From assembly GCF_016907055.1 (NCBI RefSeq), contig NZ_JAFBBG010000001.1, positions 186,001 to 250,000 of the forward strand: DNA of 64,000 nucleotides. The letters are read 5' to 3'. The first letter of the stretch is position 1. Each line of letters begins with the position of its first letter. This document shows, one piece after another, positions 1-6,427 of the stretch. The position numbers and the translations under genes were made by a program. Under the pieces are notes generated by a model that saw only the letters and a program-made list of their open reading frames with translations, had not been told where the DNA came from and searched no databases. This DNA comes from Paracholeplasma morum. GTDB lineage: Bacteria > Bacillota_I > Bacilli_A > Acholeplasmatales > UBA5453.

Positions 1-369
1 ACCATCTTCGACAATTTGGCTTGCGGTCTTAATCATTGCGCGCTTAAGCGAGTATTCTTTAACAATATCTACATAAGCATCTAAATTGGTTGTCGTTGGA
101 ACTAAGTCAGTGATTTCAGATAGATAGGATACGCCCACGTCTCTCATTGCACCTAGTTGTGCTAGTTCAGTTGATACCGTGGTATAGTCCATTTTCTCTT
201 CTCTTAAAAACAAATTCTTTAGCGCATAAAATATACGTTGATTTCGTTGATCATAAAAATCATCTTCGTTTAGTTTATCCATCAAACTAACCATTACTGC
301 TGGGCTTAGAAATACTGACCCTAAAACGGACTGTTCTGCTTCTAAGCTATACGGCATGGTGCGACTCAT
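1..369 (-). CDS. dnaB: Replicative DNA helicase DnaB, N-terminal part (cut by window edge)
   Basis: This is the first 123 codons of the hexameric replicative helicase (DnaC in Bacillus naming), which unwinds DNA at the replication fork. The translation begins MSRTMPYSLEAEQSVLGSVF, the typical start of the DnaB N-terminal domain, and continues with the helical domain up to the window edge; the RecA-like ATPase domain lies outside. The start ATG at 369 has a GGTGA-type ribosome binding site just before it, overlapping the end of the gdpP-rplI gene 10 bases upstream. The order gdpP, rplI, dnaB is the Bacillus order, which supports the call. Not visible here: Walker motifs and any intein. Confidence 0.95.
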   Translation of the reverse strand, partial: MSRTMPYSLEAEQSVLGSVFLSPAVMVSLMDKLNEDDFYDQRNQRIFYALKNLFLREEKMDYTTVSTELAQLGAMRDVGVSYLSEITDLVPTTTNLDAYVDIVKEYSLKRAMIKTASQIVEDG

Positions 370-378
370 ATAATCACC

Positions 379-822
379 TTATCTTTCTAATACATTAATT
401 TCGAATTGCGCTTTAACATCTTTATGTAGGGATACACTTGCAGTATAAATACCTACAGAGTTAATGTCAGAAACAAGTTCAACTTTTTTCTTATCGAGAC
501 GAATACCTGTTTGTTCTTCAAACGCTTCAACTACTTGTTTGGTTGTAACACTACCGAACAATTTGCCATCGTTACCCATGTTAATATAAATCGTAACCGA
601 TTTGGACTCGATGTCTTGTTTAAGTTTGTTCATTAGTGCTAAATGCTCTTTTTCACGTTCTTTAATCATTTGTTTTTCTGTTTCCAAAGTTTTAATGTTT
701 TCATCTGATGCGATAATGGCTTTAGCGCTAGATAATAAGAATTGACCATAACCATTGGCTACATCAATAATATCGTCTTTTTTACCTCTACCTTTCACGT
801 CTTCAATTAAAATGACTTTCAT
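379..822 (-). CDS. rplI: Ribosomal protein bL9, likely also translated from an internal start
   Basis: This is the in-frame 3' part of the gdpP fusion gene. From the ATG at 822 it encodes 147 residues, the normal size of L9, a large-subunit protein that binds 23S rRNA near the L1 stalk. The sequence shows the N-domain (MKVILIEDVKGRGKKDD), a long charged linker helix and the C-domain. A near-perfect Shine-Dalgarno AAGGAGA at 830-836 lies 7 bases before this ATG, inside the gdpP reading frame. That strongly suggests free L9 is produced by internal initiation, in addition to or instead of a fusion. The dnaB start follows 9 bases downstream. Confidence 0.85.
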   Translation of the reverse strand: MKVILIEDVKGRGKKDDIIDVANGYGQFLLSSAKAIIASDENIKTLETEKQMIKEREKEHLALMNKLKQDIESKSVTIYINMGNDGKLFGSVTTKQVVEAFEEQTGIRLDKKKVELVSDINSVGIYTASVSLHKDVKAQFEINVLER

Positions 823-2814
823 TCTTTCGTCTCCTTCGTCATGTTCTCTTAATAATAGTGTCTTAAGTGTATCAAATACTTCTTCAGGTGATTGATTCTT
901 GATTTGAGTAGCTGCAGAGTTAAGATGTCCGCCACCACCCATTTCTTCCATAATCACTTGTACGTTTACTTCATCATAACTTCTTGCGCTAATCCCAATA
1001 GAATCTTCGTCTACTCGAGCAATTGTAAAGCCTGCTTTTACCCCTTCAATATCCAAAATACGTTCTGATACTTGTGCTAACAATACGCGGTCTCTAATCT
1101 CTGTAGATTGATCAAATACTACCGCAAATCCTTTTGTAACCACAGTAACGTTTTGAAGTAATTCATTGATGAGTAAAGTTCTATCTAAATCCAGTCTCAA
1201 CCATTCTTTAACTCTAACAGAGGAGGCTTCATGTTCTTTTAAGTATGCAGCCGCACCAAATGTTCTCATACCGGTACGGTAGGAGAAAACGTTCGTATCC
1301 ACAAGAATACCACCATACATGATGGTTGCTTCAATCGGAAGTAAGTCGATGTCTTTTTGGTAGAACTCCATCATTTCTGCAACAAGTTCAACTGAGCTTG
1401 ATGCGTATGGTTCAACATACATAAACTCACCATCAAATGTGTTTTCACTGTGTCTATGGTGATCGATAACTGCAACTTTACTTGCTTGATTATAAACATC
1501 GATGTTTGCGATGATATTTGGTGATTGTGTATCCACAATGACTACAAGTGTGTGTTCACCAATAACCTTTAAAGCATCTTTGGATTCAGTAAATGATTTA
1601 AATAATTCTGGATCTTCTTCTTTAATGTAAGGAATTAACTTCTTAACTGTATTATCCATTTCAGGTAAGTCAAATACGATTTTCGCATCCACTTTGCTTG
1701 CAACAGACATTCTAAACACGCCAATCATGGCACCTAGTGCATCAATATCGGCTTGTTTATGGGCAATAATCACTACGTTGGAACTGTTTTCTAATAGTTC
1801 TCTAAAGTTCTGTGATTGAACACGAACGTGTACTCTTGAACTCTTTTCTGAAGCATTGGTTTTACCACCAAAATATGCAATCTTTTCGTTTTGAATGTTA
1901 ACTACTGCCTGGTCACCACCGCGTTTTTCAGCAAGTTCAATTGCATTTTGGGCAAGTGTCCCCAATTCTTCAAAGGAAACTTCCCAAGAAGCAATCCCAA
2001 TTGAAGCAGATACTCTAATTCTATGTTTAGAAGATACCTCACGAATGCGGTTTAATATCTCAAACTTATTTTGAATTACTTTTTGAAGTTCTTCATAATG
2101 CATTGCGATAATCATTCTGTCTTCAGTATAAAGTTTCAAATACCCTTTATGTTCTTGAATCCAGTCAGTGATGATACCTAAGTATTCACCACGAATATTT
2201 GATCTTTCGTAGATGTCAAATCCTGAAAGTGCCTCTTCAACGTTGTCTAGGTAAAGTACTCCGAGTGCTGTTGAACGTGATTGGTATTTTTCTTTAATCT
2301 CTTCACGACTCGTTACATCGAAAAGATAAATTACTTGGTTTTTTAAACTGCTAATCGCATCATACTTCTTATTACCGACTGTAAATAATAAAGCCGCTGA
2401 ACTGGATTCTATGTTTTGATCAAATACAGGATTAAGTTCTTTAAGTAGATGATTTTCAATATCGAATCCAAACACTTTATTAGCATATGGATTACTCCAT
2501 TTCACGGTGTGTGTATCTTTGTCATACAGCAAAATACCGATTGGAAGTTCGTTAAAAGCTTCATCTCCAATTTGTTTAACATGGTAAGATAAGCTTGACC
2601 AAGCGGTTAGTCTGTTATTTAATGATTTAATTTTTTGCTTTCGATTGTTATTTAGTATAAATTCGATTGAAATAACGATAAAACTGATGAATATCACAAT
2701 CAAAATATAGTATATTAAAAAGTCTCTATCGTTAAATGCGCCTTCTTGGTAAGCAATAACGCCAGAAACAATGAAACCCGCAATCGATAAAATTAATCCA
2801 ATAATGCGTTTCAT
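379..2814 (-). CDS. gdpP: GdpP-type c-di-AMP phosphodiesterase fused to ribosomal protein L9
   Basis: The 811-residue product joins two proteins that are separate neighbours in Bacillus. Residues 1-664 are GdpP, a membrane enzyme that cleaves cyclic di-AMP: two membrane segments (about 3-21 and 31-54), a PAS-like region (about 70-170), a degenerate GGDEF domain (about 175-305, remnant GGDQA), and a DHH/DHHA1 domain with HKQADID (352-358), DHHR (451-454) and GGGGH (626-630). Residues 665-811 are complete L9, beginning MKVILIEDVKGRGKK. There is no stop codon between them. I chose the ATG at 2814 because the promoter -10 lies between it and an upstream in-frame ATG at 2844, and because GGGTGG precedes it. 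Family functions are established knowledge; whether the fusion is made as one chain is unknown. Confidence 0.93.
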   Translation of the reverse strand: MKRIIGLILSIAGFIVSGVIAYQEGAFNDRDFLIYYILIVIFISFIVISIEFILNNNRKQKIKSLNNRLTAWSSLSYHVKQIGDEAFNELPIGILLYDKDTHTVKWSNPYANKVFGFDIENHLLKELNPVFDQNIESSSAALLFTVGNKKYDAISSLKNQVIYLFDVTSREEIKEKYQSRSTALGVLYLDNVEEALSGFDIYERSNIRGEYLGIITDWIQEHKGYLKLYTEDRMIIAMHYEELQKVIQNKFEILNRIREVSSKHRIRVSASIGIASWEVSFEELGTLAQNAIELAEKRGGDQAVVNIQNEKIAYFGGKTNASEKSSRVHVRVQSQNFRELLENSSNVVIIAHKQADIDALGAMIGVFRMSVASKVDAKIVFDLPEMDNTVKKLIPYIKEEDPELFKSFTESKDALKVIGEHTLVVIVDTQSPNIIANIDVYNQASKVAVIDHHRHSENTFDGEFMYVEPYASSSVELVAEMMEFYQKDIDLLPIEATIMYGGILVDTNVFSYRTGMRTFGAAAYLKEHEASSVRVKEWLRLDLDRTLLINELLQNVTVVTKGFAVVFDQSTEIRDRVLLAQVSERILDIEGVKAGFTIARVDEDSIGISARSYDEVNVQVIMEEMGGGGHLNSAATQIKNQSPEEVFDTLKTLLLREHDEGDERMKVILIEDVKGRGKKDDIIDVANGYGQFLLSSAKAIIASDENIKTLETEKQMIKEREKEHLALMNKLKQDIESKSVTIYINMGNDGKLFGSVTTKQVVEAFEEQTGIRLDKKKVELVSDINSVGIYTASVSLHKDVKAQFEINVLER

Positions 2815-2834: not shown

Positions 2835-2863
2835 AGTATACCAAAATCAGCCTTTTATATCAA
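2835..2863 (-). promoter_or_regulatory. Promoter of gdpP-rplI-dnaB
   Basis: TTGATA (2858-2863), a 17-base spacer and TATACT (2835-2840). Transcription would start near 2828, giving a leader of about 14 bases before the ATG at 2814. A perfect 9-bp inverted repeat with a TCAA loop (2851-2872) overlaps the -35 element and could be an operator; it has no T-run, so it is not a terminator. Confidence 0.75.
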
Positions 2864-2973: not shown

Positions 2974-3002
2974 ACAAAAAAACCACTATTTCTAGTGGTT
3001 TA
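2974..3002 (-). terminator. Terminator of rpsF-ssb-rpsR
   Basis: On the minus strand the 8-bp stem AACCACTA/TAGTGGTT (2981-3000, loop of four) is followed by seven T. It lies just after rpsR and before the gdpP promoter. Confidence 0.85.
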
Positions 3003-4110: not shown

Positions 4111-4581
4111 TTATTTTGTGAGTAGTTTATAAATCATTTGATAAACTACTTTGATCGCATTCTCTAAAATGAGTTCACGAGGTTCATCTCTTAATTGAAT
4201 ATGGTAGCTATAAACTTCTTCCTTATAGGCAATCGAAAACCATATTTCTCCTACTTGAGAGTTAGCTTGAGCTGTAGGTCCGGCATTACCTGTTATTCCT
4301 ACACCAATATCCGCTTTAGAAAGTTTCTTTATTTGAGAAGCCATTTCGATTGAGATGACTTTTGAGACAATGCCGTGGACATCAAATAGCGTTTCATTAA
4401 TAAGAAGTACATCTCTTTTGGCTTCTTTTGAATAGGTCACGACACTATATTCAATCACGTTGGATGCCCCAGGATTCTTGATTAACTCATAAGCCAATCC
4501 GCCACCTGTGACGGACTCAGCGAATGCTATTTTATAGTCGTAATTGATTAAAACATCGAGTACTTTCTTAGAGATGTCCAT
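4111..4581 (-). CDS. CinA C-terminal domain protein (NMN amidohydrolase-like)
   Basis: The 156-residue protein is the stand-alone CinA C-terminal domain, related to PncC, which deamidates nicotinamide mononucleotide. Family signatures are AESVTGGGLAYEL (about 21-33) and GVGITGNAGPT (about 92-102), with GEIWFSI following. The N-terminal molybdopterin-binding-like half of full CinA is missing, as in many small genomes. It is the last gene of the tatD-htrA-unknown-cinA operon; its ATG lies 2 bases from the previous stop and its GGGAGAG binding site lies inside the upstream gene, suggesting coupled translation. Enzyme activity is inferred from the family only. Confidence 0.85.
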   Translation of the reverse strand: MDISKKVLDVLINYDYKIAFAESVTGGGLAYELIKNPGASNVIEYSVVTYSKEAKRDVLLINETLFDVHGIVSKVISIEMASQIKKLSKADIGVGITGNAGPTAQANSQVGEIWFSIAYKEEVYSYHIQLRDEPRELILENAIKVVYQMIYKLLTK

Positions 4582-5365: not shown

Positions 5366-6427
5366 CTAGAGCGTAAGCTCAACTACGATAGTAGAAAATA
5401 CTCCTAGAGAATATCTTCTTATGGTTAAATTAAGTTTATCTCCAAATTCTATTTCGCTAATGAGTAGTCTTAACTCGTCGATGCTTTCGATTGGTTGATC
5501 ATTAACATGAGTGATAATATCTCTTTCAAAAATTAATCCCTCAGATGGTCTTAAAGGCGTTAGTGATACTACATACACACCTTTGATTGATTCTTCGATG
5601 TGTTCTGGTCTAACACCCGCATAATTCTTCTCGATAATGTCTGAGATATTTGAGACGGTTACGCCAAGTTTCGGTTGTTCAAACACGACTTTTTTTTCGT
5701 GTCTCATCTTATTTACAATAGGCACTGCTGTTAGCATAGATATTGCAAACCCAATCCCTTCAACAGAGATTTCACCTTCCGGTGTTACGACTGTTGAACG
5801 TTTCCAAGTGTTAAATCCTAATAGATTCCCATTCAGATCAAAGAGTGGTCCTCCACTATTTCCTGGATTGATTGACGCATCATGTTGAATCACTTTTGGA
5901 TTGGATGTTAATCCAACAACGCCTAATGTGGCGGTATTAAAGTAGTCCAAATCTAGTGGTGTTCCGATTGCGATCACAAATGATCCAATTGTAGGTCTAG
6001 CAAAGACTTCACCATCAAACTGTTCTGTTCCAAAATATTGTAAATCTTCAGTTGTTTCAAAGGTTAATAGAGCTAAATCTTCAGGTTCATTCAAAGCATA
6101 CACTTTTGCATCATAGTATTTGGATGCCAACACTCGTAAATAGCTTTGCCCTTCAATAACATGATAGTTCGTAATAACATAGTAACGATAAGATCCTTCA
6201 AGGTCTTCTCTATCATAAATCAGACCAGATCCGTGACCGACACTTAAGTCATATGCTTTTGTATCATATGAGACAATAGCAACCGTGACAGGGCTCAATT
6301 CTTCGTAAACACTAGATATTTGGCTTTGAACATCTTCAAGTGTAAATGTCGTTGTTTCTGTGTTATAACAACCCGATAAGGTAATACTTGCGATGAATAG
6401 TAAAGCTAATCCTAAAAATTTCTTCAT
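5366..6427 (-). CDS. HtrA/DegP-like serine protease, predicted lipoprotein
   Basis: The 353-residue protein is a trypsin-like protease with a C-terminal PDZ domain, the HtrA layout for degrading misfolded exported proteins. The N-terminus has a lipobox (TLSGC, cysteine 20), so it should be anchored outside the membrane by lipid rather than by the usual HtrA membrane helix. The triad is visible: His in TNYHVIEG, Asp in NEPEDLALL and Ser in NPGNSGGPLF. A single PDZ domain (about 250-350) includes GVYVVSLTPLRPSEG. It follows tatD by 4 bases and has AGAAGGAG before the ATG. The lipid anchor is unusual and fits a wall-less cell. Confidence 0.88.
   Translation of the reverse strand: MKKFLGLALLFIASITLSGCYNTETTTFTLEDVQSQISSVYEELSPVTVAIVSYDTKAYDLSVGHGSGLIYDREDLEGSYRYYVITNYHVIEGQSYLRVLASKYYDAKVYALNEPEDLALLTFETTEDLQYFGTEQFDGEVFARPTIGSFVIAIGTPLDLDYFNTATLGVVGLTSNPKVIQHDASINPGNSGGPLFDLNGNLLGFNTWKRSTVVTPEGEISVEGIGFAISMLTAVPIVNKMRHEKKVVFEQPKLGVTVSNISDIIEKNYAGVRPEHIEESIKGVYVVSLTPLRPSEGLIFERDIITHVNDQPIESIDELRLLISEIEFGDKLNLTIRRYSLGVFSTIVVELTL

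Follow-up and report, generated by a model that had tools for sequence, protein, structure and literature searches.

How many proteins does a bacterium make from a single reading frame in which gdpP runs without a stop into rplI, the gene for ribosomal protein L9, and does the fused form matter to the cell? Such a frame lies in a stretch of 64,000 nucleotides of the Paracholeplasma morum genome (contig NZ_JAFBBG010000001.1, positions 186,001 to 250,000), referred to here as the window. Reading through it bore out the original prediction that GdpP and L9 form one frame: 811 codons on the minus strand (379-2814) lead from the ATG at 2814 to the TAA at 381-379, without a stop to part GdpP from L9, and an alternative TTG at 2844 would add 10 amino acids. 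The L9 ATG (822-820) and the AAGGAGA (836-830) were also found where they had been placed, separated by 7 bases. The neighbouring genes, named by eye from their translations, are rpsR, ssb and rpsF on the 5′ side and dnaB on the 3′ side. An L9 search of the window's genome, a draft of 29 contigs, returned no second L9 gene. The fused gene may be transcribed on its own, given a promoter-like site just upstream of gdpP and a hairpin after rpsR (Table 1); promoter-like sites in the region were no more numerous than in shuffled sequences.

Table 1. Features of the fused gdpP-rplI gene and its upstream region. Positions are those of the window; residues are those of the fused protein.
Feature	Residues	Window position	Strand	Basis or remark
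gdpP-rplI fused frame		379..2814	-	NF011110, 871 bits, residues 30-811
GdpP part, predicted membrane c-di-AMP phosphodiesterase	1-664	823..2814	-	Pfam domains and 9n0l
N-terminal region, putative membrane anchor	1-60	2635..2814	-	Hydrophobic; two predicted long helices
PAS domain of GdpP part	79-167		-	Pfam
GGDEF-like domain of GdpP part	188-311		-	Pfam
DHH domain	346-503	1306..1779	-	H352, D356, D358, D428, D451-H452-H453 invariant
DHHA1 domain	577-650	865..1086	-	GGGH 627-630 invariant
Internal Shine-Dalgarno AAGGAGA for L9		830..836	-	Within GdpP-L9 linker codons; kept in relatives
Internal ATG, candidate start of free L9	Met665	820..822	-	Start codon kept in 153/153 fusions
bL9 part, 147 aa, N and C domains complete	665-811	379..822	-	TIGR00158, Pfam, 1div
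Promoter-like TTGATA-17-TATACT with TG (extended -10), just upstream of gdpP		2835..2863	-	Suggestive only
Terminator-like hairpin between rpsR and gdpP		2980..3001	-	Sequence

By its domains and catalytic residues, the GdpP part is a predicted c-di-AMP phosphodiesterase. The Pfam models PAS_GdpP (PF21370), GGDEF_GdpP (PF24898), DHH (PF01368) and DHHA1 (PF02272) matched it in this order, all above the gathering score, and the nearest solved GdpP homologue of the window protein was 9n0l (E 5.6e-83). The catalytic residues (HxxxDxD, D and DHH, and the GGGH of DHHA1) were invariant across 30 aligned sequences. The L9 part was recognized by TIGR00158 (113 bits; cut-off 58.6) and by Pfam L9_N (PF01281) and L9_C (PF03948), each above its cut-off, with 1div as its structural match (E 1.4e-32). 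An AlphaFold2 model of the fusion gave confident individual domains and a domain arrangement without confidence (pTM 0.39); it placed N-terminal helices at residues 2-23 and 30-89, and the long helix joining the two bL9 domains at 704-736.

The fusion architecture is already catalogued by NCBI, and hence is not new. The NCBIfam model NF011110 (PRK14538), named 'putative bifunctional signaling protein/50S ribosomal protein L9', has the same architecture over almost its whole length: it scored 871.2 bits on the window protein (cut-off 707), with residues 30-811 aligned to positions 53-835 of the 838 in the model. More distant members of the class scored below this cut-off. The family name covers the fusion alone and says nothing of an internal start, of two products or of selection acting on the tail. 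Our literature search, which covered few subscription papers, found no paper on the fusion, on PRK14538, on a start inside the frame or on how selection acts on the tail, and no proteomic data for the gene.

To place the fusion among relatives, we surveyed the order, a sample that was not preselected for the fusion, unlike the set of 153 fusions used below. All 132 genomes with a match, phytoplasmas included, carried gdpP and rplI fused (132 of 134 genomes had a match, and the other two are 81-83% complete); a few genes were partial, cut by contig ends, and no intact gene was split. Genomes that seemed to be without the fusion or L9 (G004, G062, G106, G394, G400 and G410) are drafts of 64-83% completeness, and in G050 (93% complete) the gene is present as a fragment. 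The stop region, whose comparison in related genomes had been proposed along with the original prediction, was free of stops in 40 of 41 relatives, which had the same frame. An L9 search of the order located L9 essentially always within the fusion, with a separate second copy in two genomes only, G014 and G116. Another genome (G081) holds two copies of the whole fusion. An apparent extra L9 in G117 was rejected, as its two matches are one gene cut by contig ends.

The fused clade takes in Acholeplasma laidlawii, A. oculi, Anaeroplasma, onion yellows phytoplasma and 'Ca. P. tritici', and outside the order the fusion occurs in families f9, f16, f19, f23 and f24 of the class; matches in a phylum-level scan for fusions all fell within this same class. 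The fusion is ancient, found throughout the order and in at least five families beyond it, and no local accident. Separate, adjacent gdpP and rplI genes were found in families f7, f10, f11, f12, f15, f17, f20, f21 and f22, and at seven of the loci that we examined the two frames were in phase with one stop between them. Neighbouring families have the two genes side by side, in some cases in phase and parted by just one stop, so a lost stop between gdpP and rplI, deep in the clade, is the most likely origin of the fusion. A quick GdpP tree explained the fused rows by at most two changes, and the stop loss was probably a single event. The mechanism of origin proposed in the original prediction thus agrees with the neighbouring families; the scale is not that of a recent stop loss in one strain but of a much older event. 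In family f7, which lies near the fused clade on the tree, gdpP and rplI are separate at both L163 (genome G137) and L164 (G148), and at L163 only one stop parts the two frames, which are in phase; these separate genes may be either the ancestral state or a reversal, between which the tree does not decide.

We then considered whether the internal ATG is used. The codon at Met1 of L9 was ATG in 134 and GTG in 19 of the 153 fusions, and never any other. GTG makes up 15% of the valine codons in the genes with a GTG start, and no other valine codon occurred at the internal start; ATG and GTG replaced each other at this site at least eight times on the tree. A pattern restricted to ATG and GTG, with repeated switching between them, argues that the internal codon acts as a start codon rather than reflecting a preference for a residue. 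Shine-Dalgarno energies pointed the same way: the median at the internal L9 start was -8.6 in the 153 fusions, compared with -0.8 for a control set of 2,665 other ATGs lying in frame within these fusion genes, and energies of -5 or stronger were found at 91% (139/153) of L9 starts and 6% of control ATGs. In the window, the Shine-Dalgarno duplex energy of L9 (-8.8) was similar to those of gdpP (-9.0) and dnaB (-8.3). The Shine-Dalgarno sequence surpassed the mean of synonymous recodings of the linker in 111 of 151 genes, and linker glycines were encoded by GGA in 165 of 257 cases, GGT being dominant elsewhere. In 14 of 15 genomes (p 0.0015) the L9 part came nearer than the GdpP part to the codon use of ribosomal-protein genes, a small effect in a set of related genomes.

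With start codon and Shine-Dalgarno sequence conserved far above control ATGs, free L9 is very probably made from the internal start. This is in line with the original proposal that the gene yields both the fusion and free L9, the internal signals being present in almost all of the 153 fusions. Weak internal Shine-Dalgarno sequences were seen in G014 and G116, in some phytoplasmas and in one borderline genome. Several phytoplasma-like genomes (L111-L127) had a weak sequence at the L9 start and, where dnaB was found, at dnaB as well; these reduced genomes may rely less on Shine-Dalgarno pairing. Production of free L9 is less certain in the phytoplasmas with a weak internal site.

Evidence that the fused product is itself of use came from the linker. 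Across the tree of the 153 fusions its last six codons accumulated at least 490 nucleotide changes, and 7% of possible linker changes create a stop. Were a split harmless, about 34 stops should have appeared, and not one was seen; this expectation is a rough one that assumes uniform, unconstrained change in a set picked as fused. On average over the last eight codons, about six single-base changes would each create a stop. We rejected overlap with the Shine-Dalgarno sequence as a force that keeps stops out, because stops in the last two codons spare that sequence and separate-gene relatives have them. Those same relatives show that a gdpP/rplI split can be a workable arrangement.

A second, independent line of evidence came from G014 and G116, where a tandem free rplI directly follows gdpP-rplI (loci L041 and L106 respectively). 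The two fused and two free L9 sequences were each other's nearest relatives, which indicates a local duplication; it is one event in two sister species with draft genomes, seen in two assemblies. The free copy has its own Shine-Dalgarno sequence, AAAGGAG, and keeps 27 of 31 L9-conserved positions (4 lost). The fused copy has lost its Shine-Dalgarno sequence and 10-11 of the 31 positions, including G24, Y25 and G90, and is probably no longer translated as free L9. Between G014 and G116, dN/dS was 0.115 for the fused L9, 0.148 for GdpP and 0.135 for the free L9; dN was lower than dS (Fisher 2e-16), significantly so for each of the three. A tail that probably yields no free L9 any more is thus still under constraint. 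On this evidence the two species represent a natural case of two L9 roles separating, and their diverged tails favour, in those two species, something other than standard ribosome binding. Collectively, the lack of stops where about 34 were expected and the constrained tail in G014 and G116 argue that the fused product matters, and it appears to be kept by selection. The idea that the fused L9 might be a mere spare domain found no support: L9 was never split off in the order, and the tail is under purifying selection in these two genomes.

We therefore favour, with a probability of roughly 0.7, a reading in which one gene gives two nested products and the L9 tail does something for GdpP besides supplying L9. 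Translation from the ATG at 2814 would yield an 811-residue membrane GdpP, with its DHH/DHHA1 domains, that ends in a whole bL9 module, and independent initiation at the ATG at 822, from its own Shine-Dalgarno sequence, would yield a 147-residue bL9 in ribosomal amounts. An ancestral pair of adjacent gdpP and rplI genes would have lost its stop, probably once and deep in the clade, and the fused form would then have been selected. If selection keeps the fused form, the L9 tail has a job for GdpP; we infer this function, and the accumulation of both proteins, from sequence conservation. Our favoured job, put forward tentatively, is that the tail docks GdpP at ribosomes or rRNA near the membrane. 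For an L9 module attached to a membrane enzyme, ribosome docking may be the simplest task, with a structural role as the main alternative. In that variant two products would also be made, and the fused tail would serve only the folding, oligomerization or stability of GdpP, without ribosome contact. We regard this as somewhat unlikely: it would fit the strong constraint on the G014 and G116 tails after they lost ribosomal-L9 positions such as G24 and Y25, whereas all other tails keep the full L9 signature, a point confounded by the fact that the same DNA encodes free L9. A more elaborate scheme, which we consider unlikely, is that the tail docks the phosphodiesterase on ribosomes, or free L9 competes with it for rRNA, so that c-di-AMP breakdown would be tied to the supply of ribosomes or to translation near the membrane; after the duplication, the tail would have specialized in another direction and left the ribosomal job to the free copy.

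Readings with a single useful product were less probable. If only free L9 were used, the fusion would be a harmless read-through of a lost stop and its L9 tail a passenger. The strongly conserved internal start and Shine-Dalgarno sequence are compatible with this, as is the presence of a sole L9 copy in almost all genomes, which would be enough by itself to constrain the L9 sequence. However, stops between the Shine-Dalgarno sequence and the ATG would leave the former intact and none occurred in the order, and the fused copy without a Shine-Dalgarno sequence still had a dN/dS of 0.115 where a free copy supplies L9; a passenger tail is thus quite improbable. Conversely, only the fusion might be made, so that ribosomes would receive L9 on membrane GdpP and those bearing it would be tethered to the membrane. 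The single frame without a stop and the weak internal sites of some phytoplasmas would agree with such an arrangement, but it is very improbable in view of a start codon retained by all 153 fusions, a strong Shine-Dalgarno sequence in 139 of them, loss of that sequence in the two genomes with a free L9, and codon usage in the L9 part that differs from that in the GdpP part. L9 is also required at ribosome abundance. Finally, the draft state of the window genome, with its 29 contigs, would leave room for a stop removed by a sequencing or assembly error, but this is refuted by the intact relatives, all of which, in independent assemblies as well as complete genomes, have the same frame.

Nested in-frame starts that give a long and a short product are known from E. 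coli infB and cheA. The present gene resembles these in having a second ribosome binding site within the frame from which a C-terminal product would be made. In contrast to infB and cheA, this gene joins two once-separate genes, and its short product would be a ribosomal protein, its long product a second-messenger enzyme of the membrane. The GdpP (YybT) of Bacillus and Staphylococcus likewise has a PAS domain, a degenerate GGDEF domain and DHH/DHHA1 with their catalytic residues, preceded by membrane helices that are putative in the fusion, and rplI and dnaB follow its gene; there, however, a stop closes gdpP, and rplI stands as a gene of its own. In Gram-positives, gdpP is co-transcribed with rplI (PMC5575661, PMC3711813). 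A ribosomal protein carried on a second-messenger enzyme throughout an order that includes phytoplasmas with genomes of 500-900 kb suggests that c-di-AMP control is physically linked to ribosomes or to their supply of protein. Annotation of the gene as one 'bifunctional' protein would make these wall-less bacteria seem to be without rplI, because one stretch of DNA serves two products. In G014 and G116 the duplicated pair is a natural experiment, ready at hand, on whether the fused tail functions in its own right.

Two further reading frames of the window were identified by eye, both on the minus strand. A 156-aa ORF at 4111-4581 resembles a stand-alone C-terminal domain of CinA (competence/damage-inducible). 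A 353-aa ORF at 5366-6427 combines a lipoprotein-like signal, ITLSGC, with a trypsin-like GNSGGPL motif and probably encodes an HtrA-type surface protease.
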